A stretch of 45,160 bases of DNA from a virus. The notes beneath the pieces are model-generated. The model had not been told where the DNA came from and made no database searches. It saw nothing but the letters and a program-made list of their open reading frames with translations. Position numbers and translations under genes: made by a program. Positions within the stretch are counted from its first letter, which is position 1. Every line of letters starts with the position of its first letter. Shown one piece after another: positions 969 to 32,580 of the stretch. The stretch covers positions 1 through 45,160 of the IMG/VR virus record IMGVR_UViG_3300018476_000017, one strand, 5' to 3'.

Positions 969-1106
969 TCAACTCTTGACGATGACGTAGTGCCCACCCT
1001 GCGAACGCACGATGGCCATTGCTGCCGACAGCGAGTCGACCGTTTGCTGGCTGCCCTCACGGGTGGTCACCAGGTACTTGCGGGTCTTGCCGCAGCCACA
1101 GGCCAT
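969..1106 (-). CDS. Small Cys-motif protein in the late operon
   Basis: A 45-residue protein, MACGCGKTRKYLVTTREG at the N-terminus and ending HYVIVKS. It has a CxC pair (C3, C5) followed by a short alpha/beta-like segment. Short CGCGK-type proteins occur between head and tail genes in actinophages, without a known function. The start ATG 1106 overlaps the stop of the MuF gene as ATGA, and the next gene starts 3 bases after its stop. The coupling on both sides is the main evidence that it is real. Confidence 0.7.
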   Translation of the reverse strand: MACGCGKTRKYLVTTREGSQQTVDSLSAAMAIVRSQGGHYVIVKS

Positions 1107-3520
1107 CAGACACCGACCTTCTCACGCAGGCGGGCAACGCGCTGCTCACGGATCGAAGCGGTGAGCGCTGCGGCACGTTCCGCCCGTTGGCGGGCCGCCA
1201 CTCGGCGCTCTTGCTCGTCCACCACACTGACGGCGATCACGCCGTAGTCGATGGCGTTGGGGTCGGCGGTGACGATGGCCGCCGCGGTCAGAGCCAGCAA
1301 CATCTCCGGGTCGGCGGCAGACGCTGCCAACTCCAGCCGCGGGATCGGGAACCCGGGAACATTGACGATCAGCGCGCCGACCAGTTCAAGCGTGCCGCCA
1401 ATGCGACGCCAGTCGCCAGAGGGGGCTCCGGCGCGTAGTGCATGGGCTTGCTCTTGGCTGATGCCGGGACGCTCGATGCCGTGGACCCAGATGCCGAACT
1501 CGTCCTCACCGGCGGCAACGTCGGCAACCACGGTGCCGGTGTCGTCGTAGTGGCGCACGGTCTCGGTGGGGCTGGCGTCGGCGGTGGCGTGGCCGGTGCC
1601 CGCAGTGATGTGACCCACCGGCACCGGGCCACCGGCGGTCATCACTTCGCCGGTGCGGAAGTACGCATAGTCATGCGCTGACTTGGGAGCGGTGACGCAG
1701 TTCTTCTCACCGAAGCCGACGTGGCAGGTGTCCCAGGTGGCCAGGTGGCCGCTGACTTCGTTGAAGTCGCCAGCGGCGCGCACCATCAGTGGTGTCGGCC
1801 CCTGCAACTGCGGGTCAAGGAACAGTTCGATCGGTGGCTCCATGTCATCCTCCATACAATCACATTGAGCGAAGGCCGCAGCGACCTCACGCAGTTGTTC
1901 GGTGTCGATGTCCAACGGCAAGCCGTCGAAGTAACCGGGGTCCGCCGCGGCGGCAACTCCCCCACGCCGACCGCGGCGGCCACCTTCTTGGCCAGGCCAC
2001 AGGTTGATGGCCACCTTGTGCAAGTTGGCGCACGTGCCGTCGAGGTACGCCGGATTCTTGATGTACTTGCGAAGTTGCTTGCGGCAGCGGTCGAAGTCGC
2101 CGGGCACGCCCCAGCGAATCTTGGCTGCGCCCTTGCCGCGCGTCCAGTAGGTGCGCAGCCGTTGGGTGTCACGGGGATGGGTCACCCAGCCGGGACCGTC
2201 GTGGGTGCCGGGTGCGGCGACCAAGTCGTCGGCGTCGGCCTTCAAGCTGTCGGGCACCTCGTCACCGAGCTTGGCGTACAGGCCGCGCAGCCGACTGCGA
2301 GCCTTGGCTTTCTGTTCGGCGGGGGCATTCACGCCGCCACGCGCTCCGGCCAGGGCAGCCGCAGCGGCGTGAACCCCTGCCCTGCTCACTGCTCCCGAGG
2401 GGGTGAGCACGGGGACCTTGTAGGTGCTCTTGGATTGCGGGTCGCCACCGGGCATGGTGATCAGGCAGGCCCGCCGCCACTGCTCGATGGTGTAGTCGCT
2501 CGATGAGAAATTGCTCCACGGTTCTTCGCTGACGGCCAGCAGGGTGTCGTCTTCCAGGGCGGCGGCCATCTCGGTGGGCGGCGGCGGGTCGCCGCTGCGG
2601 TCGATCTTCTCGCCTGCCCACCACAGCTGCACGCCGTCGACGCTGACCGAGTCGGGGGTCACGTCGGGGTGGGGCACGCCGTAGCCGAGCGTGACATGCG
2701 GGGTGAAGTGCGGATGGTCGCCCGCCGGGCGGGCCACTTCGGAGAGGCTGTCGTGCAGGGTGGCGAAGTTGGGATGCTCCAACAGGTAGGTCGTGGCTTG
2801 CGGGTCGTCGTCGCCCATGAACGCCTTGCCGGTGATCTTGGCGTCGAACGGCTCGACGGCGGTGTTGTTCAGCCAGGCGACCAGTGCCTCGCGCAGCTGC
2901 GGCGGCGCTTCGTCGGCGTGGCCGTAGTAGCCCAAGGTGACATGCAGTTGGTCCGGCGGGTCACCACCGGGCACAGCAACGCTGGCAGGGTCTGCCAGTG
3001 TCGCCACCGCTACGGCTCCCCGAGGCGGATCGGAGGCGGCAGTGACGACACCGGCCCCCACAGTCAATCCACAGCGGCAGTTGATCCACACCGCAGGCGG
3101 GCCGACCGGCTGCCCCGGATATTGCAGGGCAACGCCCCCGACCATGAAGGGCTTTCCGGCGGCGACCGTGACGCCCTCCATTGGCTCGTGTGTGTCTCGC
3201 ACACGATCATCGAGGCGGGTGTTCCAGGTGAACGTCGACCCCGGCGGGGCAGCGGCGATCACCGCGGCATTGGCGGCGGCGGTCTCCAGCCAGCCGACCA
3301 CCAAGTCGATGTCGCTGTTGGCGCGGGTTGCTTCGATGGCCGCGCTGAGCATCATCGTGTAGTCGCGCACGTCGTCCACGGTCAGTGTGTCGGCGCTGTC
3401 GTCGTCCACAATGCGGTCGTATTCGGCGGCGAACAGTTCTTCGGCAATGCGTTCCAACTCGGCGCTGCGTTCACTGGGCAGCAGGGCAAGGGCGGCTTCG
3501 ACGTCGGAGCGGGTGCTCAT
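1106..3520 (-). CDS. MuF-like minor head protein fused to a 2H phosphoesterase and a protease-like C-terminal region
   Basis: 804 residues from ATG 3520, which overlaps the portal stop as ATGA. Residues 1-155 match the phage Mu F family: RLDDRVRDTHEPMEG, a YPG turn and the terminal NCRC (147-150). Residues about 185-305 hold two HxT motifs, HVTLGYYG (H193) and HVTLGY (H275), the signature of 2H phosphoesterases (LigT / 2'-5' RNA ligase superfamily). About 340-500 contains a Ser/Lys-rich region and the actinophage block KGAAKIRWGVPGDFDRC. About 540-800 includes HLATWDTCHVGFGEK and GHITAGTGHATAD, found in actinophage capsid maturation protease-like proteins. Expected to sit in the head near the portal. 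The enzymatic domain in a virion protein is unusual. Confidence 0.85.
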   Translation of the reverse strand: MSTRSDVEAALALLPSERSAELERIAEELFAAEYDRIVDDDSADTLTVDDVRDYTMMLSAAIEATRANSDIDLVVGWLETAAANAAVIAAAPPGSTFTWNTRLDDRVRDTHEPMEGVTVAAGKPFMVGGVALQYPGQPVGPPAVWINCRCGLTVGAGVVTAASDPPRGAVAVATLADPASVAVPGGDPPDQLHVTLGYYGHADEAPPQLREALVAWLNNTAVEPFDAKITGKAFMGDDDPQATTYLLEHPNFATLHDSLSEVARPAGDHPHFTPHVTLGYGVPHPDVTPDSVSVDGVQLWWAGEKIDRSGDPPPPTEMAAALEDDTLLAVSEEPWSNFSSSDYTIEQWRRACLITMPGGDPQSKSTYKVPVLTPSGAVSRAGVHAAAAALAGARGGVNAPAEQKAKARSRLRGLYAKLGDEVPDSLKADADDLVAAPGTHDGPGWVTHPRDTQRLRTYWTRGKGAAKIRWGVPGDFDRCRKQLRKYIKNPAYLDGTCANLHKVAINLWPGQEGGRRGRRGGVAAAADPGYFDGLPLDIDTEQLREVAAAFAQCDCMEDDMEPPIELFLDPQLQGPTPLMVRAAGDFNEVSGHLATWDTCHVGFGEKNCVTAPKSAHDYAYFRTGEVMTAGGPVPVGHITAGTGHATADASPTETVRHYDDTGTVVADVAAGEDEFGIWVHGIERPGISQEQAHALRAGAPSGDWRRIGGTLELVGALIVNVPGFPIPRLELAASAADPEMLLALTAAAIVTADPNAIDYGVIAVSVVDEQERRVAARQRAERAAALTASIREQRVARLREKVGV

Positions 3521-5307
3521 GGGACAGCCTCCAGGGCGCGCGGCATGGTTGCTGCCAGCAATGCAGAAAGCACCGTTGCCGAATGCGGGCGTTGCGATTC
3601 CAACAGGCCACGGACGTAGAAGTCGAGTGTCTCGATCACCGACTCGACACTGCCGGTGTAGCTGGCCAGCACCGCAGGCGCGCAGGCCCAGGCTCCCGCC
3701 AACAGGCTGGACGTGTCGCCGTTGAGGGTGCGATACACGTCGACGGTGGCCATCGACTTGGCGTCGTACTTGGGGTGGGCGTTCATCAGCTTGTTGCCTG
3801 CACGCTCCAGCGCCCGGTACACCAGCACGTCGCACGCTGCGGCCAAGCCGACCTGTTCGGACTTGGCGTGGTGGCTCGGCTCGTTCTGGTCGGGCGGGTT
3901 GCGCCGCTCCAGCGCCGGGGTCACGTCGGTGCGTAGGTGGTCGGGCGGCAGCTGCGCAGGCTGGACGCTGATCGTGCCCAGGTCGGTGCCCAGCAACTTC
4001 AGCGCCGCTTCGGTCATCTCCGGTGTGGTCGAGCCGACAGCGATCTTGCGCAGCAGCCACATCTTCTGTTCGGCGGTGAGCGGTGCGTCTTCCGGTTGGA
4101 AGCCGGTCTCGCGGCGCAGGGCCACGCCGCTGAGCTCGTTGCGGTCGTACAACTCGATGGCCTCTTGGCTGCGGTTGGGGCGCAGGCGGATGCCGCTGGT
4201 GTCAGCGATCACGAAGTAGTCGCCCACTTCGTCGTCGGGCACCAAGCCCTTCAGCGACGGTTGCAGGTATTGCTCGGTCAGGGCGTAGGCCAGGGTTGCC
4301 AGCTTCGGTTCCAGATGGGCCTTGACTGCCGACTCCTCAGAGAGCCATGCGTTCCAGTGGTTGGCGTCGGCCACGCCCAGCAGCACTTCCGGGGGGACGT
4401 CCATGCCCAGGGCAAGCCGCTTGATGGCGGCATCGCGCATGACGACGACCTTGTCGTCCAACTCGCTCCAGAACTTGAGATGCTCTTGCTTGCCCAGCGC
4501 TTCGGTGGGGACCATCGCCACAATCGGGACCAGCGCGCTGGGGTCGGCACGGTCGCCAATCGGGGTCATCATCGACTCACCGAGAATGGCCATGAACCTG
4601 CTGGCCGGGCTGGCGTTGGGGTCCATGCCTTCGGGCACGGGGAAGTCGATGTCGCTGGACATGAACAAGATGCCAGCACCCGCCAAGCGGCTGGCGATCT
4701 GCGCCGACACGTGCATGTCGTAGCCGGTGATCTGCGCCAGCGTCGACAGGTTGGGGCGCACCGGGCTGTCGGGGCGGGTCGGGTCTTGCGGGTTGGGCAT
4801 CCACACCCTGATCACCAGGTCTTGCGGGGTCAGCGTGATCGGCCCGGCCTCGGTGCCGAAGTCGGCCTGCAACACCCCGCCGGGCAGCTGGGTGACCTTG
4901 TTGTAGGCCAGCGTTTCCCAGGCGTCACCCTTGGCCCGGTTGACGATGTATTCGTCACCGGCGATGGTGGTGTGCACGCCGAACAGTTGCAGCATCTGGC
5001 TCTGCCCTTGCGGCCCGCCGTACAGGGCGTCCATGGCTTCGGTGGCGGGGCTGTCGCCACCACTGATCGGCACCAGCAGTCGCCCTTCACGCTTGGCGGC
5101 AACCAGCGTGGCGCGGCTCAACACGTTGCCGATCCACGTTGCTACATAGCGAAGCTCACCAACGTTCTCCCAGAATCGCCACGCTTCGCCTTGCCAGTTC
5201 TCCGGTCGTCCCGCCATGTTGCGGCTGCTGTTCGGCAGCCTGACGGCGGAGGCCACGAAGCCCGCCGGAGCGACGGGCGCGGGCTGCGGTTGACGTACCT
5301 TGGCCAT
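3517..5307 (-). CDS. Portal protein
   Basis: 596 residues, a normal length for an actinophage portal, placed between the terminase and the MuF gene as usual. It has the family's alpha/beta core: WQGEAWRFWENVGELRYVATWIGN near the N-terminus (read here in parts), a central SSDIDFPVPEG segment, and the conserved LGMDVPPEVLLGVADANHWNAW stretch around the stem and wing. The dodecameric portal ring is the DNA entry and exit channel and binds the terminase. It begins 15 bases after the DUF1360-like gene and is ATGA-coupled to the MuF gene. Confidence 0.9.
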   Translation of the reverse strand: MAKVRQPQPAPVAPAGFVASAVRLPNSSRNMAGRPENWQGEAWRFWENVGELRYVATWIGNVLSRATLVAAKREGRLLVPISGGDSPATEAMDALYGGPQGQSQMLQLFGVHTTIAGDEYIVNRAKGDAWETLAYNKVTQLPGGVLQADFGTEAGPITLTPQDLVIRVWMPNPQDPTRPDSPVRPNLSTLAQITGYDMHVSAQIASRLAGAGILFMSSDIDFPVPEGMDPNASPASRFMAILGESMMTPIGDRADPSALVPIVAMVPTEALGKQEHLKFWSELDDKVVVMRDAAIKRLALGMDVPPEVLLGVADANHWNAWLSEESAVKAHLEPKLATLAYALTEQYLQPSLKGLVPDDEVGDYFVIADTSGIRLRPNRSQEAIELYDRNELSGVALRRETGFQPEDAPLTAEQKMWLLRKIAVGSTTPEMTEAALKLLGTDLGTISVQPAQLPPDHLRTDVTPALERRNPPDQNEPSHHAKSEQVGLAAACDVLVYRALERAGNKLMNAHPKYDAKSMATVDVYRTLNGDTSSLLAGAWACAPAVLASYTGSVESVIETLDFYVRGLLESQRPHSATVLSALLAATMPRALEAVP

Positions 5308-5934: not shown

Positions 5935-5947
5935 GGTTCCTTTCGTT
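5935..5947 (-). promoter_or_regulatory. AACGAAAGGAACC ribosome binding element on the minus strand
   Basis: The 13-base motif that precedes most plus-strand early genes occurs here on the minus strand, 4 bases before ATG 5930. GAAAGGA is complementary to the UCCUUUC 3' end of actinobacterial 16S rRNA. It is the only clear copy in the late operon and has no hairpins beside it. Confidence 0.75.
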
Positions 5948-7340
5948 ACGGCGTGTAGCCCCTGATGGTTGGATGGAGATGGCGCTGCGGGCGGTCGTGC
6001 CGCCGCAAGGCGGATGGTGATGCAATGTCGGTGGTGCGGGCGCGACCGGCCAACTCGGTCATGCCGTGCACCAAGGCGTCGACACGGTCCGGACTGTCGC
6101 GGTCTTCATACGGCTGCCATGTGGTCATCTGTTCTTCCAGTGTTTCCAAGATGCCGACATGCGACACCAAGCCCTGTTCGTACAGGCCGACGATCGGCTC
6201 GGCGCGCAGTGCCTTGCCGCGACGACTGTTGACCCGGATGATCCGCTTGTTGATGCCGCTGCTGCGCAGGTTCTGTTCGACAAGGTCGCCACCGTAGTTG
6301 TCCTCGCAGACCACAGCGTCGGCTTCGTATTCGTCCCAGGCGGCGTCGACAGCGCGCGCCCAGCCCTGCGGCGAGTGCCTGCCGCTGCGGTCGGCCAACG
6401 GGTAGTAGCGCCCGTCGTGGCCGCGGGCGACGACGATGATGCCGGTCTCGTCTGAGTGCTTGTTGGCCGTGCCTGCCGGGTCGACGCTGACCACCACGCG
6501 CTTGAGTTCCGGGGCGATCTGCACACGGTGCGGCTCGATCATGTCGAAGGTCCACAGTGCGCCTTCGACGTCGGCCAGCAACTCGCCGTAGACCTCTTGG
6601 CGTCCTTGTCTCGTGCCTTCGTACTTCTTGATGATCACCTCGGCAAAGCTCGGTGCGAGGTTGTCGATGTTGTCGTAGGTGCTGGCCGTACTGATGCGTG
6701 TCCGCGGGTCAGCGATGAGCTCTTTCATCCACAGCCGCGGCTTGGGCGTGGTGGTAACAACGATGCGCGGCTTGCGGCCGATGCGCAGCCCGAACATCAT
6801 GTTGTCCCAGGCTTCTTGGACGAGCGGCCAGTGGGCGGGTTCGTCGCACCAGGCAAAGCCATGCTCGGGGCCACGCAGGCGGTCCGGCTCCTCCGCACTG
6901 AACGTCGTCCCGATGCACCCGTTGGGCCACGTCAACCGGCGCTTGGACGGCTCAAACGTGGGACGCCAACCGGGGCGGGCGATGGTCAGCAGGCCGCTCT
7001 CACCTTCCAGCAACGTGTCGCGCACGTCGGCCCCTGTTGCCGCGATCAGGGCGATGCGGCTGACGTGTTCGGCCATGCGGTGGGTGTATTCGGATCCGGC
7101 GCGGGTCTTGCCTGCGCCACGGCCCGACTTCATCAGCCACACCAGCCAGTCGTCGTCGGTCGGCGGGCGCTGACTGCCGCGGGCGTGGTTCCATTCCCAT
7201 ACGTCGTGGGGCTTGCCGTCGCACGCCGGGCGCGGGCAGTAGAACGGTCGCCAGTCGTCGTTGCGCGACTTCTGCAGGCGCTCCAGTGCGGCTTGCTGGG
7301 CGGCGGGTGTCCACTCTTTGTAGATGTCGAGCTCGCTCAT
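5946..7340 (-). CDS. Terminase large subunit
   Basis: 464 residues from ATG 7340 (MSELDIYKEW), which overlaps the preceding stop as ATGA. The frame stays open upstream, but that part overlaps the DpdA-like gene and looks non-coding. The ATPase domain has Walker A SGRGAGKT (72-79), Walker B WCDEP (D166/E167) and the coupling motif TTTPKP. The C-terminal RNase H-like nuclease shows VVVSVDPAG, VVCEDNYGGD and SPDRVDALVHGM, supplying the acidic metal ligands. It packages DNA into proheads through the portal two genes downstream. Confidence 0.95.
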   Translation of the reverse strand: MSELDIYKEWTPAAQQAALERLQKSRNDDWRPFYCPRPACDGKPHDVWEWNHARGSQRPPTDDDWLVWLMKSGRGAGKTRAGSEYTHRMAEHVSRIALIAATGADVRDTLLEGESGLLTIARPGWRPTFEPSKRRLTWPNGCIGTTFSAEEPDRLRGPEHGFAWCDEPAHWPLVQEAWDNMMFGLRIGRKPRIVVTTTPKPRLWMKELIADPRTRISTASTYDNIDNLAPSFAEVIIKKYEGTRQGRQEVYGELLADVEGALWTFDMIEPHRVQIAPELKRVVVSVDPAGTANKHSDETGIIVVARGHDGRYYPLADRSGRHSPQGWARAVDAAWDEYEADAVVCEDNYGGDLVEQNLRSSGINKRIIRVNSRRGKALRAEPIVGLYEQGLVSHVGILETLEEQMTTWQPYEDRDSPDRVDALVHGMTELAGRARTTDIASPSALRRHDRPQRHLHPTIRGYTP

Positions 7341-8116
7341 CACCACAGTCCCATCTGCACGGCACGGTCGGGCGTGCTGGCGACCACCTTGGCACGCCAG
7401 TCGAGGGCGAAGTGCAAGCACGACGTGCAACTCTTGGAGTTGCTGACCGGGCACGGCACGGTGCGCCGTCCCCATGTCGACCAGGCCATTGAGTCGGCAC
7501 TGGTCAGGCACCAGCCATAGCGGCGCAAGCCCAACAGCTTGACCCCGAACCCGTGCAGGCGCAACCCGTCGCCGTGCAGGGCGGCGATCAGTTCGGCTAT
7601 CGGGCGGGTCGCCTGGCGGCGGCACACGCTGCCCAAGCCGACCACCGGCTCGGCAAACAGGTCGACACCGGCGCGGCTGTAGGCGTCGATGTGACTGCGG
7701 TAGTCGGCAAGGGTTTGGCCTTGCAGCACGGGGATCACCGCGGCGTCGAGGGCGCGCAGCGTCAGATAGTTGTCGACCGTGTACGCCTGCGCCTGGCCGA
7801 CCGTCGAGGCAACCTCGCTGCGGGCCAGCACCCACGGCTCGCACATATGGTCTTGCGGGGCGCACCACCCCAACATGCCGACCTCGTCGCGGTAGCGGCG
7901 GATGGCCGCCGCGTATTCGACGGGCGTGGTGAGGAAGCGCCCGAAGTTGGCGACCTCGGTGAACGCCCCGGAGTCGAGGCACCACCGCGCCGTGGCCCGC
8001 GGCAAGTGATACGGATGCTCGCGGGCCAACCGCCGATGGCTGACGAACAGCGGCACGGCGACCTTTCCCAGCCAACGGGTCATGTTGGTGCCCAGGTAGA
8101 ACTCATCGGCCAGCAT
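7340..8116 (-). CDS. DpdA-like (TGT-fold) 7-deazaguanine DNA base-exchange enzyme
   Basis: 258 residues from ATG 8116 (MLADEFYLGTN); a longer start at 8182 is possible but would overlap the upstream gene by 80 bases. Features of the tRNA-guanine transglycosylase fold: CLDSGAFTE (like the DSGGFQ motif), VIPVLQGQTLADY, GVDLFAEPVVGLGSVCRR, LHGFGVKLLGL, TSADSMAWS with the candidate nucleophile Asp, and a C-terminal CPVSNSKSCTSC with a following His as a zinc site. Phage DpdA proteins replace guanine in DNA with preQ0 derivatives, which protects against restriction. It sits directly before the terminase, as in some mycobacteriophages. No preQ0 synthesis genes are in this window, so host preQ0 may be used. 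Confidence 0.8.
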   Translation of the reverse strand: MLADEFYLGTNMTRWLGKVAVPLFVSHRRLAREHPYHLPRATARWCLDSGAFTEVANFGRFLTTPVEYAAAIRRYRDEVGMLGWCAPQDHMCEPWVLARSEVASTVGQAQAYTVDNYLTLRALDAAVIPVLQGQTLADYRSHIDAYSRAGVDLFAEPVVGLGSVCRRQATRPIAELIAALHGDGLRLHGFGVKLLGLRRYGWCLTSADSMAWSTWGRRTVPCPVSNSKSCTSCLHFALDWRAKVVASTPDRAVQMGLW

Positions 8117-8426
8117 CGGCCCAGGCTCCCAGGTCGCGAGCGAGGCTGGGAATGTCGGGCGGGTCGAGGCCGTAGTCGGCAATCAGGCAGCGGGCCAGGC
8201 AGGTGCGCAGGTACGCGTTGACGCTCAGCCCTTTGTCTTGGGCGGCAGCACGAACCAGCTTGAAGTCTTCGCCTTTCAGCTGCAACCGGGCGATGCCGAC
8301 CTTGGGCACGTAGGCCAGCTGGCCGAGCGTCTTGCCGAGGGCGCGGTAGCGCCACATGCGGTTCAGGGTTTCGTCGTCGGCGTCGAGTGCGGCGTCGATG
8401 TCGGCATCAGTCTCCAGGTCCGACAT
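8103..8426 (-). CDS. Ribbon-helix-helix-like small DNA-binding protein
   Basis: 107 residues. After an acidic N-terminus (DADIDAALDADDETL), GIARLQLKGEDFKLVRAAAQ followed by GLSVNAYLRTCLARCL fits the beta strand plus two helices of RHH (Arc/MetJ) proteins. It overlaps the small terminase candidate by 20 bases and the DpdA-like gene by 14. It is one of several RHH-like genes upstream of the terminase; operator binding is inferred. Confidence 0.65.
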   Translation of the reverse strand: MSDLETDADIDAALDADDETLNRMWRYRALGKTLGQLAYVPKVGIARLQLKGEDFKLVRAAAQDKGLSVNAYLRTCLARCLIADYGLDPPDIPSLARDLGAWADAGR

Positions 8427-8874
8427 CGATCACCCCCACTTCCAACTCGCGCAGGTCGCTGATCTTGGCCCCGGTGACCGACGCGACCCAGGCGTCGATC
8501 TCGGCACTGGTCGGGGTGTGGATGGTGATCTCGTGGGGAGCGTCGAGGCCGAACAGGCGAATGTGGCGGTCGATGATGCCGACGGCCATCTTCACTGCCG
8601 GGAGATGTTCGGCGTGGTCGGGATTGGTGGCCTTGCCCCACACGCCGCGCAGTAGGCGCTCCAGACGACCGGCTTCTTCGGCGCGCAGTGTCTCGCGGGT
8701 CTGTGGGTCACCGACGCGCGCCGCCAGGGTGGTCTCCACCGCCAGCCGGGCAGCCGCCGGGCTGGGGAAGCCGAGGGCGTCGGCAATCTCGTGGTAGCTG
8801 GCTCCTGCCAGTCGCAGGGCGGTCGCCGCCGGGCCTTGGGCGCGTGACGGGGTGAGCGATTCGGTCTCACTCAT
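8407..8874 (-). CDS. Putative terminase small subunit
   Basis: 155 residues from ATG 8874 (MSETESLTPSRAQ); the frame extends upstream but only through the neighbouring gene. ALRLAGASYHEIADALGF is a helix-turn-helix typical of small terminase DNA-binding domains. A helical region with RLERLLRGVWGKA and AVGIIDRHIRLFGLDAP follows, resembling the oligomerisation part of actinophage TerS candidates. Location two genes before TerL agrees. The small subunit recognises the packaging site and stimulates the ATPase. Confidence 0.65.
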   Translation of the reverse strand: MSETESLTPSRAQGPAATALRLAGASYHEIADALGFPSPAAARLAVETTLAARVGDPQTRETLRAEEAGRLERLLRGVWGKATNPDHAEHLPAVKMAVGIIDRHIRLFGLDAPHEITIHTPTSAEIDAWVASVTGAKISDLRELEVGVIDVGPGD

Positions 8875-9106
8875 GGCTGGCCTTGATCCCGTCCACGAGG
8901 GCATGGATCGAGTCGGGCTTGCGCGCCGGGCCGAGCGGCGGCACCTGACGGCGCGCTTCGGGCCTGACGGTCTGCTCGACACACCAGGCGATGTAGTCGC
9001 TCATGTTCCACCGTCTGGCGCGGGCACGCTCGGCGGCGGCGGCGTGCAGGTCAATCGGTAGGCGCACGGTCGCTCTCACCCGGCGTCCCTTGTACGGCTG
9101 CGGCAT
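8867..9106 (-). CDS. Ribbon-helix-helix-like small DNA-binding protein
   Basis: 79 residues, MPQPYKGRRVRATVRLPIDL then HAAAAERARARRWNMSDYIA and WCVEQTV: a basic N-terminal arm, a beta strand and two helices as in CopG/Arc repressors. A strong GGAGGTG lies 4 bases before ATG 9106. It overlaps the genes on both sides (56 bases upstream, 8 bases downstream). DNA-binding is inferred from the fold pattern. Confidence 0.7.
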   Translation of the reverse strand: MPQPYKGRRVRATVRLPIDLHAAAAERARARRWNMSDYIAWCVEQTVRPEARRQVPPLGPARKPDSIHALVDGIKASHE

Positions 9107-28932: not shown

Positions 28933-29068
28933 CCAGGGCGAGTTCGATGCGCTGCTTGCCGCACACCGAGCGACAGCCGCTGAAGTGGAGGCGCTGAAGC
29001 TGCGTCTGGCCTACGTCGAGGGCTGGGTGCGCGGCGTACAGGAGGCGCTGCGCAAGGATGAGACATGA
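28916..29068 (+). CDS. Very small coiled-coil protein
   Basis: 50 residues from GTG 28916, helical throughout (GEFDALLAAHRATAAEVEAL, KLRLAYVEGWVRGVQEALRK). It overlaps the genes on both sides (17 and 4 bases). A small oligomerisation or adaptor protein; it immediately precedes the radical SAM gene. Confidence 0.6.
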   Translation: MAEGVSQGEFDALLAAHRATAAEVEALKLRLAYVEGWVRGVQEALRKDET

Positions 29069-30033
29069 CCTACGTCCAGTCGGCACCGTTCAGCATCCAG
29101 GTCGAACCCACCGAGGGTTGCAACCTGCGCTGCGGGTTCTGTGGTATACGCGGCATCCGCGAGAAGGGCACCAGCGGCGCGCTGAGCGGACCGTACAGCT
29201 ACATGGCGGTTGACACGGCGCACGCGCTGGCACGCCAGGTGGCCGCCGCCGGGTGGAGCAGCCGCATTGAGTTCGCCATGCACGGCGAGCCAACGATGAA
29301 CCCCGACCTGCCAGCAATCATCTCGGCGTTCAGGTCGCGGTTGCCCAAGCAGTCGATCATGGTGACCACCAACGGCATCCCGTTGCTCGACCGTGGGCTG
29401 CGCGCCTCGATCCTTGCGCTCATCAACGCCGGGGCCAACACCATCGCCATTGACGACTACGCCCCGCACCGTGTGGCTCCCACGGTGCGGGGCGAGCGAT
29501 GGCCGTTTCCGGTGATGGAATACCCAGCCGACAAGCACGGCAATCCACACGTGCGCTTCTCAGGGCAGCGCATCGTGATCGTGGAGGACATCGCCCAGGC
29601 GGAAACCGGCACTCACTCGACGCTGAACAACCACGCCGGGAGCGCCGCCCCGCCGAACACCAAGCGTCAGGCGCAGGTGTGCACGCTCCCGTTCCGTGAG
29701 ATGAGCGTGCGCTACAACGGGCAGGTGGCTCTGTGCTGCAACGACTGGCGCGGCCAGTACCCCATCGGTGACGCCGCTGCCGACCTGCTGGCGGTGTGGA
29801 ACAGTCCACAGTTCATGGCGGCGCGGCGCATCTTGCTTGCGGAGGGGCGCAAGGACATCACGCCGTGCGCCGGGTGTGACTATCGCGGCACGCGCGTCGG
29901 CTTGCTGCCCCTGCAAGACGGAAGTGGTCGCGCCGAGTTGGGCGAGCCCACCGAAGCTGACCGCAAGATGGTTGCCGACCAAGCAGGCACCACGACCCTG
30001 GCACCAGTGGTGCTGCGAAGGTGGGAGAAGTGA
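29065..30033 (+). CDS. Radical SAM enzyme with SPASM-like C-terminus
   Basis: 322 residues from ATG 29065. CNLRCGFC (C19, C23, C26) is the CX3CX2C motif for the SAM-binding 4Fe-4S cluster. HGEPTMNPDL and MVTTNGIPLLD are the barrel motifs. The C-terminus (VCTLPFREMSVRYNGQVALC and CNDW, later CAGCDYRG) holds extra Cys residues as in SPASM auxiliary clusters. Such enzymes do radical chemistry on peptides, sugars or bases. It overlaps the glycosyltransferase gene by 4 bases, and phage radical SAM genes are known near TET/JBP genes, so action on a modified base or its sugar is the best inference. Confidence 0.8.
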   Translation: MTYVQSAPFSIQVEPTEGCNLRCGFCGIRGIREKGTSGALSGPYSYMAVDTAHALARQVAAAGWSSRIEFAMHGEPTMNPDLPAIISAFRSRLPKQSIMVTTNGIPLLDRGLRASILALINAGANTIAIDDYAPHRVAPTVRGERWPFPVMEYPADKHGNPHVRFSGQRIVIVEDIAQAETGTHSTLNNHAGSAAPPNTKRQAQVCTLPFREMSVRYNGQVALCCNDWRGQYPIGDAAADLLAVWNSPQFMAARRILLAEGRKDITPCAGCDYRGTRVGLLPLQDGSGRAELGEPTEADRKMVADQAGTTTLAPVVLRRWEK

Positions 30034-30704
30034 TCGCCATCATCAGTGCTGGGCGGCCAGCAAACGTCAAGGCAATGAGCGACGTGGGATGGCAGGGCAC
30101 ATGGTTCGTGCCGTATGGCGAAGGGGACGCCTACCTTGACGCTGGTGCCAGCGACGTGATCGAGAGCGGCAACCTGATCGACTCGCGCAACGTGGCGCTC
30201 GACATGGCGTTTGACCAAGGTGACGTGTGCGTGCAGGTCAGCGACGACTGCACCAAGATGCGCCGCCTGCACCAAGGCGAAGCACCAGCCGCGCTGCCGG
30301 GTGAGTTCGTAGCCGAAGCACTCGACCACATCACGGCCAACTGTCGGCTGGTGGGCATCGCCCCGACCGACAATGCGTTCTACGGCGGCGAGAAGGTGAA
30401 GCGCCAGCACTTCTGCGTGGGCGACCTGTTCGTGGCGGCACCCAGTCCGATCCGCTTCGACCGGCGGCTGCGCTTGAAGGAGGACTACGACTACACGGCG
30501 CAGCACATCTACCGCTACGGCGAAGTGGCTCGCCTCGACTGGTGGCTGGTCAGCTTCACGCATCGCACCAACGCGGGCGGCGTGGTGCAGTACCGCACGG
30601 CCGAGGTTGAGCAGGAGTCAATCGCGGTGCTGCGCGAGAAGTGGGGCAACTGGATACAGCCCAACAGCCGACGCGACAACGAAGTGCTACTGCGCGTCCG
30701 CTGA
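30030..30704 (+). CDS. TET-associated-type glycosyltransferase (TAGT-like)
   Basis: 224 residues from GTG 30030 (GTGA overlap, GGGAG upstream). IAIISAGRPANVKAM begins a GT-A fold; SRNVALDMAF and VCVQVSDDC (D72/D73, a DxD-like metal motif) follow, then LKEDYDYTAQHIYRYGEVAR, reminiscent of the EDxD region of this family. TAGT enzymes are encoded next to TET/JBP dioxygenases in phages and transfer sugar to the hydroxylated base in DNA. Its 3' end overlaps the convergent TET-like gene by 18 bases. The family is judged from pattern and neighbourhood. Confidence 0.65.
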   Translation: MIAIISAGRPANVKAMSDVGWQGTWFVPYGEGDAYLDAGASDVIESGNLIDSRNVALDMAFDQGDVCVQVSDDCTKMRRLHQGEAPAALPGEFVAEALDHITANCRLVGIAPTDNAFYGGEKVKRQHFCVGDLFVAAPSPIRFDRRLRLKEDYDYTAQHIYRYGEVARLDWWLVSFTHRTNAGGVVQYRTAEVEQESIAVLREKWGNWIQPNSRRDNEVLLRVR

Positions 30705-31604
30705 GCGCACCTTGCCGCGTTGGTCGTTGGCTTGGGTCGCACGCAGCGCAGCGCGGTGCGCCTCCCCCGCTGGGTCTGCGCAGCAGTGGCTCATCATCTG
30801 CTTGGCGTAGGTGACCGCCGTGAAGCGGTAGCCCTTGGGATGCAGCACGTTCAGCGGCGTGACCCCATGCGTGATGCTGTGCCCGTCGAAGATGGTGATG
30901 CTGCCGTTGGCGATGGGCAGGTACACGTCGTAGTCGACCAGATGAAGCAAGCCACCATCGACGTGCTTTCGGCAACCAATCATGGCCGACCACGACTTGG
31001 CCACGTTACCGCGATCACGATGGTAGGGCAGGGCCGCGGTGGCGTTGATGATGCCACTGGTCCACGGCGTACCGGCGATGCGCCACGGCGACGAGATGAT
31101 CGAAGTGACCGCCTGTGCTGTGTCGGTGTAGGCGTCGGGTGCTTGCGTGCGGAACACATGCTCGGACACCCGGCAGAACTCGGCAAGGCGTTCCATTGCC
31201 AGCGGATAGCGGTCGTTGAACTGGCTGCGGCTGCATCCCCACTTGCGTCGTAGCGGCGCGGGCGGGGCGTAGCCGAACGTGTTGTGAACTACGGCCATCC
31301 CACTGAGTCGTGCTGCACTCGATGGTGTCGAGTACTGGTCCATCCAGTGAACGTTGCGCAATGACGCGGCGAGCTTGTTGGCAAGCGACTGTGCACACAC
31401 CGCGTACACGACCGCGATCTCGCCGGTGTCGGCGTCAACAATGGCGGTGTCGCGGTCGAGTATGTACGCCCCGGCAGGAGGCGCAGGAGCATGACTACGA
31501 GCCTGGGTCTGCTGGCACTCCGGGCAGCGCTTGGTGGGCGTGTACGGAATGAGCATCCCGCACGACACGCCAAGCCGCGGAGTGCAGTGAACGAGCGGTG
31601 CCAT
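30687..31604 (-). CDS. TET/JBP-family 2-oxoglutarate/Fe(II) dioxygenase
   Basis: 305 residues from ATG 31604 (MAPLVHC); a start at 31556 is possible. The double-stranded beta-helix has LPYHRDRGN (H195, D197: the HxD iron motif), a WSAMIG strand, DGGLL, SITIFDGHSITHGVTPL (H246, distal iron ligand) and GYRFTAVTY (R260, 2-oxoglutarate ligand). The sequence HxDxGN, GG and HG-xxP is characteristic of TET/JBP enzymes, which oxidise 5-methylcytosine or thymine in DNA. An N-terminal C7, C15, C27 and C30 set may bind zinc. Convergent with the TAGT-like gene and after the ParB-like gene. Confidence 0.75.
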   Translation of the reverse strand: MAPLVHCTPRLGVSCGMLIPYTPTKRCPECQQTQARSHAPAPPAGAYILDRDTAIVDADTGEIAVVYAVCAQSLANKLAASLRNVHWMDQYSTPSSAARLSGMAVVHNTFGYAPPAPLRRKWGCSRSQFNDRYPLAMERLAEFCRVSEHVFRTQAPDAYTDTAQAVTSIISSPWRIAGTPWTSGIINATAALPYHRDRGNVAKSWSAMIGCRKHVDGGLLHLVDYDVYLPIANGSITIFDGHSITHGVTPLNVLHPKGYRFTAVTYAKQMMSHCCADPAGEAHRAALRATQANDQRGKVRSADAQ

Positions 31605-31648
31605 GCGCCTGCGCACCACGCGCTCCAACGAACTCTGCCCACGTTGCA

Positions 31649-32344
31649 CTACGCGTCCACCGGGAACTGCATGACCTTGCCTTCGACCTCCGGCGCAGCA
31701 GCAAAGTGGTCGGGAATCTCGGCGCACGCAGTGTTGAGCATCTTGTGGACGAGCTCGGCGTTGGTGTCGATGTTCAGGTAGTCGCGCAGCAGTGCCATCT
31801 GTTGGGTCACTTCCTCAAAGACGCTGGTCTCGTAGGGCAAGATGATGCTGCGAATGTCGAGGTCGTTGTACTGGTCGAGGCGGTCGTCTGGCGTTGGTGC
31901 AGAGCGCACGCCGCCGGTGATCTCGCTGGCCTCCACGCCTTGCAGCAGTAGCTCGTAGGCGTTGCGGTCGTAGCCGGTGCCGTCGAGATTGTCTGCCGAC
32001 ATCAACTGCTCCAGCAACTCAAACAGAGCCTCGTCGTTATAGAACGCAAGGTCGCTGGTGCGGTTGTCAGCGAGGGCCAGGCGGGTGGCTTGTACGTCGT
32101 CCACGTCGACGTACATGACGGGAATCTGTGTGGCACCCAGTTCGATGAGCGCCTGGCGACGGTGATTGCCCGCCAGCACGATGTTGGTGCTGCGCTGCAC
32201 GACGATGGGCTGGTAGAACCCGTTCTTGGTGATGCTCGCCTTCAACACGTCCAAGTCGCCACTGCGCGGGTTGCCCTCCCAGGGGATGACGCTGTTGATG
32301 TCGGCCAGCATCGACTCAACTGCTGGGTGGAAGCGGACGGTCAT
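31649..32344 (-). CDS. ParB-like nuclease-domain protein
   Basis: 231 residues from ATG 32344, ATGA-coupled to the upstream HTH gene. Residues about 15-90 are the ParB/Srx fold: INSVIPWEGNPRSGDLDVLK, NGFYQPIVVQ and LAGNHRRQALIELGA, where GNHRR (59-63) is the GxxRR nucleotide-binding box. The middle (ALADNRTSDLAFYNDEALFE) is also typical. ParB-like domains bind or hydrolyse CTP and are often coded beside DNA base modification genes in phages. The C-terminal 100 residues are of unknown fold. Confidence 0.85.
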   Translation of the reverse strand: MTVRFHPAVESMLADINSVIPWEGNPRSGDLDVLKASITKNGFYQPIVVQRSTNIVLAGNHRRQALIELGATQIPVMYVDVDDVQATRLALADNRTSDLAFYNDEALFELLEQLMSADNLDGTGYDRNAYELLLQGVEASEITGGVRSAPTPDDRLDQYNDLDIRSIILPYETSVFEEVTQQMALLRDYLNIDTNAELVHKMLNTACAEIPDHFAAAPEVEGKVMQFPVDA

Positions 32345-32580
32345 TGGGTCGCCTTCTCTTTCTTGATGTTGCGGATGAGTTTGTGTACCACGTTCTCGGT
32401 GATCACGTCGCCACCTTCGGCCACGCTGGCGTCGCTGAGGCGCTCTGCGATGGCGCTCTGGCTCAGCCCTTGGCACCACAGCTTGTAGATCGCTTCGCGG
32501 CGCTTGATGTCGGCCAGCTTGCCGCGCGTTACGAGGCGCTGCGATTCGTCCAGCCGGTCGAGTATTGATGTCCTTGCCAC
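32341..32580 (-). CDS. Small HTH protein
   Basis: 79 residues from GTG 32580, with GGAAGGA 8 bases upstream; an ATG at 32595 would give 84 residues. LADIKRREAIYKLWCQGLSQ and SAIAERLSDASV form a helix-turn-helix, and the C-terminus (ENVVHKLIRNIKKEKATQ) is basic. Coupled to both neighbours. Probably a DNA-binding accessory or regulator of the modification operon. Confidence 0.65.
   Translation of the reverse strand: MARTSILDRLDESQRLVTRGKLADIKRREAIYKLWCQGLSQSAIAERLSDASVAEGGDVITENVVHKLIRNIKKEKATQ

Follow-up and report, generated by a model that had tools for sequence, protein, structure and literature searches.

A singleton-branch DpdA next to the terminase of an unusual phage, and the recurrent transporter-like neighbour of its relatives

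LC-MS has revealed dPreQ0 in the DNA of the phages Rosebush and CAjan and no detectable 7-deazaguanine in the DNA of Orion, a phage that carries a singleton DpdA without preQ0 genes (according to the sections of Hutinet 2019, PMC6884629, on which we draw). The same sections already set the singleton mycobacteriophage DpdAs apart as a subgroup of their own, raise the question of whether this subgroup has diverged, and leave open the role of phages that carry dpdA alone (Hutinet et al., PMC6884629). Bacterial DpdA, in turn, is described in the portion of PMC11888242 used here as working in islands together with dpdB, dpdC and a restriction operon. Here, we add a further DpdA to this known but still unexplained singleton branch; among actinobacterial elements such an enzyme is nothing out of the ordinary, but the phage that carries it is unusual.

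The window, i.e. the whole stretch of 45,160 bases that was analysed, is a single virus record and possibly a fragment. Its DpdA gene (Table 1) begins with an ATG at 8116, and an alternative TTG start at 8182 is also open. A sequence-only reading of this DNA had proposed a TGT-fold protein of the DpdA family beside the terminase, and this proposal holds: the ORF is real and Pfam names it DpdA. Since the terminase gene starts inside the DpdA stop codon, and the 107-aa ORF overlaps the DpdA start, DpdA seems to belong to a packaging operon; the portal gene lies further on. The 107-aa ORF itself returned no match in an NCBIfam search. DpdA also directly precedes the terminase in two other loci, L067 and L060, the former with transporter, DpdA and terminase in a row; adjacency to TerL is not general in the branch. 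Two further ORFs were noted: the 191-aa ORF at 8407-8982 (-), which lies upstream of DpdA, has PHROG 645 ‘Rnase E’ as a match (E 1.4e-18), and in a large ORF at 1106-4060 (-) a segment with matches to PHROGs named ‘RNA ligase’ is flanked by matches to head-morphogenesis and to maturation-protease-like PHROGs.

Table 1. Features of the window relevant to the DpdA gene and to other candidate DNA-modifying functions.
Feature	Position	Strand	Remarks
Portal protein	3517..5307	-	PHROG 776
Terminase large subunit	5946..7340	-	464 aa; ATG overlaps DpdA stop (TGATG)
Singleton-type DpdA	7340..8116	-	258 aa; Asp48 and Asp208 at predicted TGT/DpdA catalytic positions
Small ORF, 107 aa	8103..8426	-	directly upstream of DpdA; 14-nt overlap with DpdA start
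Radical SAM/SPASM protein	29065..30033	+	not recognisably QueE
Possible TAGT glycosyltransferase	30021..30704	+	PF20691 15 bits at 30186-30581, below cut-off 27.5
TET/JBP-type 2-oxoglutarate dioxygenase	30687..31727	-	Tet_JBP 41.8 bits, cut-off 34.9; second candidate DNA-modifying enzyme
ParB N-terminal-domain protein	31649..32479	-	beside TET gene

The family assignment is clear, with 249.6 bits to Pfam PF23859 ‘DpdA’ (cut-off 27) and an E value of 2.3e-77 to PHROG 1279. A match to tRNA-specific TGT only, which the sequence-only reading had named as counting against its assignment, was not what Pfam returned: the tRNA TGT model (PF01702) is absent from the matches of the protein at E up to 1. 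An NCBIfam search with DpdA gave no match, and phmmer and hmmsearch against PDB sequences gave no credible one. Among 50,697 phage records, 399 matches were found at E up to 1e-5, of which 391 are mycobacteriophages and all lie below 60% identity; the closest relatives, at about 63-65% identity, come from IMG/VR (L002-L006 among them, at 63-64%). A broader search uncovered relatives encoded on 243 viral and 187 bacterial-genome stretches. The loci analysed below are the best 80 of the former and the best 80 of the latter, so that counts drawn from them are not a census. Titles are actinobacterial for 77 of these best 80 of 187 genome loci, the other three being Planctomycetota, Polyangiaceae and Melainabacteria. 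This spread over viral and actinobacterial-genome stretches shows the singleton DpdA to be widespread among actinobacteria and the mobile elements that they harbour rather than a phage rarity.

PF23859 recognises the window protein and the DpdA of the singleton phage Thora (466 bits), and it finds nothing in the records of phages 9g, CAjan, Hedgerow and Salmonella phage 7-11, which carry other DpdAs. The family name therefore does not transfer function. At the level of profile comparison, however, hhalign connects the branch to the DpdA of Hedgerow, a phage of the Rosebush species (E 1.3e-6), and to that of 9g (E 2.1e-4), whereas mycobacterial TGT is barely linked (E 0.062, probability 0.9%). 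Mycobacteriophage copies of the gene show a median dN/dS of 0.30 over 149 pairs, which share branches and are hence non-independent, and the 40 pairs listed run from 0.034 to 0.360; such purifying selection implies that the gene does something that matters.

An AlphaFold (AF2) model built from a 65-sequence alignment reached a pLDDT of 93.8. Foldseek placed the DNA preQ0 insertase DpdA (7ui4) first, with an E value of 1.3e-6, followed by tRNA-guanine transglycosylases, and VIA-align superimposed the model on a tRNA-guanine transglycosylase with preQ1 at Z 17.8 (3.5 A over 241 residues); by all three, the window protein has the TGT-type TIM-barrel fold. The structure 7ui4 presumably represents a DpdA from a bacterial dpd island. 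As the highest VIA-align Z-scores belong to tRNA-guanine transglycosylases, the protein might be a phage-borne compact member of that enzyme class that acts on tRNA during infection and not on DNA. We consider this quite improbable given that a DNA enzyme comes first in Foldseek, that Pfam gives no TGT match, that hhalign favours the Rosebush-type DpdA over TGT and that the 258 aa of the protein fall well short of the 388-residue TGT frame.

The motifs DSGAFTE (D48) and TSADSMAWS (D208) are both present, and D48, D89, G133, G162 and D208 are invariant in all 65 aligned relatives, with Q132 kept in 64 of them. Judging by motif order, D48, D89, Q132 and D208 appear to sit where TGT has its acid/base Asp, its base-binding Asp and Gln and its nucleophile. 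The sequence-only reading had called both motifs correctly, but the Cys-rich zinc site that it added is only partial: C222, C230 and C233 are present, the His of most relatives is missing and a fourth ligand was not found. Only C233 of the three is invariant (65/65), and C230 is replaced by Glu in 15 of 65.

Conservation of this kind bears on another explanation, namely that the branch has lost base exchange and now plays a different part, e.g. DNA binding in packaging, such that no modified base is made. The unmodified DNA of Orion (in the sections of PMC6884629 used here) would fit this explanation, as would the DpdA gene just before the terminase in the window, L067 and L060. Nevertheless, we judge it improbable: no TGT-like active-site position is lost in more than one of 65 relatives, terminase adjacency is no general trait of the branch, and the linked neighbour, where there is one, is a base-precursor transporter. 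That the singleton branch works like a DpdA is likely in our estimate, and guanine modification in the window phage is plausible.

The transporter emerged from gene clustering of the genome loci as a family directly upstream of DpdA that resembles, in divergent form, queuosine-precursor transporters. It matches PF02592 (E 3e-11), the family of the YhhQ preQ0 transporter, and scores 43.5 bits against TIGR00697 ‘queuosine precursor transporter’, below the cut-off of 50.95, both matches being partial. The profile used for counting comprises 17 genome-locus members, which measure 133-293 aa and have three to six strongly hydrophobic segments. With it, 22 of the 89 viral loci and 26 of the 80 genome loci (48 of 169 in all) proved to have a transporter directly upstream of DpdA and on the same strand, usually at a distance of 0-24 nt. 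In three further loci it lies 402-749 nt upstream, and no locus among the 169 has a transporter only elsewhere. The window is among the 89 viral loci, and three contigs are counted twice in them (L017/L066, L018/L056 and L019/L082); no transporter was found in any of these.

On a tree of 150 DpdAs, from which identical proteins had been dropped beforehand, the 43 transporter-linked rows require 16 changes against a shuffled mean of 37.5, with at least five forced by starred branches; the link is therefore clustered yet recurrent. The sister group of the clade that holds the window (support 80-83) has it in five of its eight rows. In the window record itself, PF02592 finds no transporter, and none of the six nearest tree neighbours of its DpdA has an adjacent one. 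For the branch as a whole, the pair recurring in 48/169 loci points to an imported precursor and favours salvage over host synthesis.

Three ideas about the pair were not borne out. The transporter is not found mainly where the host lacks QueC (QueC in 10 of 22 linked versus 12 of 28 unlinked genomes, p = 1), a preQ1 riboswitch controlling the pair was found in none of seven transporter loci nor in the window, and the pair is not part of PrimPol/FtsK integrative elements, whose DpdA has the transporter next to it in 0 of 27 FtsK-like and 0 of 19 PrimPol genome loci. Rather, the pairs belong to phages or, where they lie in genomes, mostly to one conserved Pseudonocardiaceae neighbourhood (the pair is present in 18 of 19 loci with the flank families F5, F6, F7 or F15). 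Integrative-element-like modules do form another setting of singleton DpdA: in L110, L113, L121 and similar genome loci, an FtsK-like gene lies upstream of DpdA, and genes for PrimPol, DUF3631 and a tyrosine integrase come after it. A gene family resembling C5 cytosine methylases was also seen in eight of the best 80 of 187 genome loci (e.g. L136, 8555-9910).

Transporters of this family are not confined to DpdA loci. In the genus of Mycolicibacterium wolinskyi (G086), a PF02592 transporter is encoded in 65 of 118 genomes, almost always at full length, and a tRNA TGT likewise in 65 of 118; 64 genomes have both, which makes import of a queuosine precursor for tRNA probable in many mycobacteria. 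This co-occurrence is a further point for the view that the phage enzyme acts on tRNA. It also differs from the statement, in the sections of PMC6884629 used here, that mycobacteria possess none of these genes, a statement that, at a guess, reflects the few species sampled.

With respect to synthesis, QueC had no match in the 45 kb window record, in agreement with the sequence-only reading, and the Hedgerow record was positive in the same search; the window record may be a fragment. FolE/QueD-type genes likewise had no match in those stretches and frames of this possibly fragmentary record that were scanned with Pfam. The radical SAM protein at 29065-30033 was tried as a QueE and rejected: a SPASM domain is present, the families that it matches are other radical SAM ones, and BLASTP to Hedgerow QueE gives only 24.6 bits. 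QueC is present in just two of 50 viral records with this DpdA. As for hosts, a strong QueC was detected in 22 of 50 genomes carrying a singleton-branch DpdA and was absent from 28. Chromosomal QueC was also seen ~2-3 kb from a short PF02592 transporter, apart from singleton DpdA loci, in three genomes (G068 C253:19284-22289, G070 C34:412528-415532 and G095 C56:13824-16814).

These numbers weaken the sequence-only suggestion that host preQ0 is the likely precursor. In its fuller form, this suggestion keeps the enzyme and its product and has the base supplied as host-made preQ0, with no salvage required. The 22 QueC-positive hosts speak for it, as does the window with neither QueC nor transporter. 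It loses ground to the 28 hosts without a strong QueC, to the recurrence of the transporter-DpdA pairs and to the report that the mycobacterial hosts of the best-sampled phages have none of these genes (as far as the sections of PMC6884629 used here go). On this evidence, we regard it as unlikely.

The explanation that we prefer, and to which we give a little less than an even chance, is that singleton DpdA swaps guanine in DNA for a 7-deazaguanine taken from the cell pool, which in the branch would typically be filled by uptake, and thereby marks phage DNA. It builds on family, fold, conserved residues, operon position and the transporter link in relatives. The activity on DNA, the base used, its source and the benefit would follow this course. 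A compact TGT-fold enzyme would most likely excise guanine from DNA, with Asp208 bearing the sugar and Asp48 acting as the general acid/base, and would insert preQ0, preQ1 or a queuine-like base. This base would probably derive from the cell pool, as no pathway for its synthesis is evident in the phage; in the branch, uptake of environmental 7-deazaguanines would typically take the place of dedicated synthesis. Expressed together with the terminase, DpdA would label the phage's own genome at about the time of packaging and so conceal it from nucleases. If the laboratory medium supplies none of these bases, DNA would stay unmodified even with a salvage-fed DpdA present, as it does in Orion. Several observations count against this explanation: Orion DNA lacks 7-deazaguanine despite a DpdA of the same branch (in the sections of PMC6884629 used here), the window and its nearest tree neighbours lack the adjacent transporter, as do the PrimPol/FtsK element loci, the link is no commoner in host genomes that lack QueC, the transporter matches are partial and below the TIGR00697 cut-off, the riboswitch search was negative, and the modelled fold and the motifs are common to RNA-acting TGTs. 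In the window phage, the base may be supplied by host synthesis, by a host importer or by a gene past the ends of the record.

The window phage may carry a second means of DNA modification. The sequence-only reading had described a TET/TAGT system, of which the TET half stands by its Tet_JBP score, but the TAGT half stays below threshold (Table 1). As in several actinophages, a ParB-domain gene lies beside the TET gene. Among 50 DpdA-carrying viral records, the window alone has a clear TET, one other having a weak partial match, and PF23859 was found in none of eight TET phages, a search that DpdAs of other types would escape; the combination of DpdA and TET is therefore unusual. The radical SAM/SPASM gene adjoins the possible TAGT and TET genes and is a candidate for further base decoration.

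A naming problem surfaced along the way. RefSeq calls L010 776-1744 (Nigel gp2), L188 gp2 and L193 gp2 ‘queuine tRNA-ribosyltransferase’, yet these proteins match the window TET/JBP protein; Nigel gp2 matches Tet_JBP weakly (28.1 bits, cut-off 34.9), and the GenBank record of Stinger names the same gene ‘oxidoreductase’. The RefSeq names are probably a mis-naming by position because gene 2 of Hedgerow is DpdA. In the first genes of L010, L013, L187, L189, L191 and L193, the slot between a ParB-like/regulator gene and the terminase holds either DpdA and preQ0 genes (Hedgerow) or a TET gene (Nigel, Stinger, Matzah, LittleMunchkin and KayaCho). By gene order, this actinophage pre-terminase slot appears to be a DNA-modification cassette swapped at one place.

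A more far-reaching proposal, which we consider doubtful, joins these threads. Singleton DpdAs would be salvage-fed modifiers with which actinobacterial mobile elements mark their DNA only if 7-deazaguanines (preQ0, preQ1 or queuine) are imported from other microbes, explaining the unmodified lab-grown Orion, and in the window phage a TET-based cytosine mark would come on top, so that two bases would be modified, one of them depending on the environment. If true, camouflage of phage DNA would hinge on the surrounding microbial community, such modifications would escape LC-MS surveys of laboratory lysates, and several hundred mycobacteriophage ‘queuine tRNA-ribosyltransferase’ genes would gain a likely role. 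The transporter-DpdA pair suggests a concrete reason for the Orion result, namely a precursor missing from the medium, and turns the question of what feeds singleton DpdAs into a directly testable feeding experiment.

Compared with known systems, the window DpdA shares its fold (Z 17.8) and the motif order DSGG / QG / GxGx / D with tRNA-guanine transglycosylase (PF01702), from which it departs in being about a third shorter (258 aa versus the 388-residue TGT frame) and in its incomplete zinc site. The bacterial DpdA with a solved structure, 7ui4, presumably from a dpd island, is its best Foldseek match and, as a 413-residue chain, shows 14% identity to it. The TGT-like motifs of the Rosebush/Hedgerow-type DpdA align with those of the window protein, and both genes lie near the terminase, but this type is longer (379 aa), only about 22% identical, not matched by PF23859 and accompanied by its own preQ0 pathway (folE, queD, queE and queC). 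Finally, the singleton DpdA of mycobacteriophages (Orion/Thora type; PHROG 1279, PF23859) belongs to the same family by Pfam, PHROG and tree, with full-length matches of 46-50% identity and, in Thora, a protein of likewise 258 aa; relative to this type, the window stands out as a distant clade with its DpdA in an apparent terminase operon and a TET/JBP gene in the same genome.
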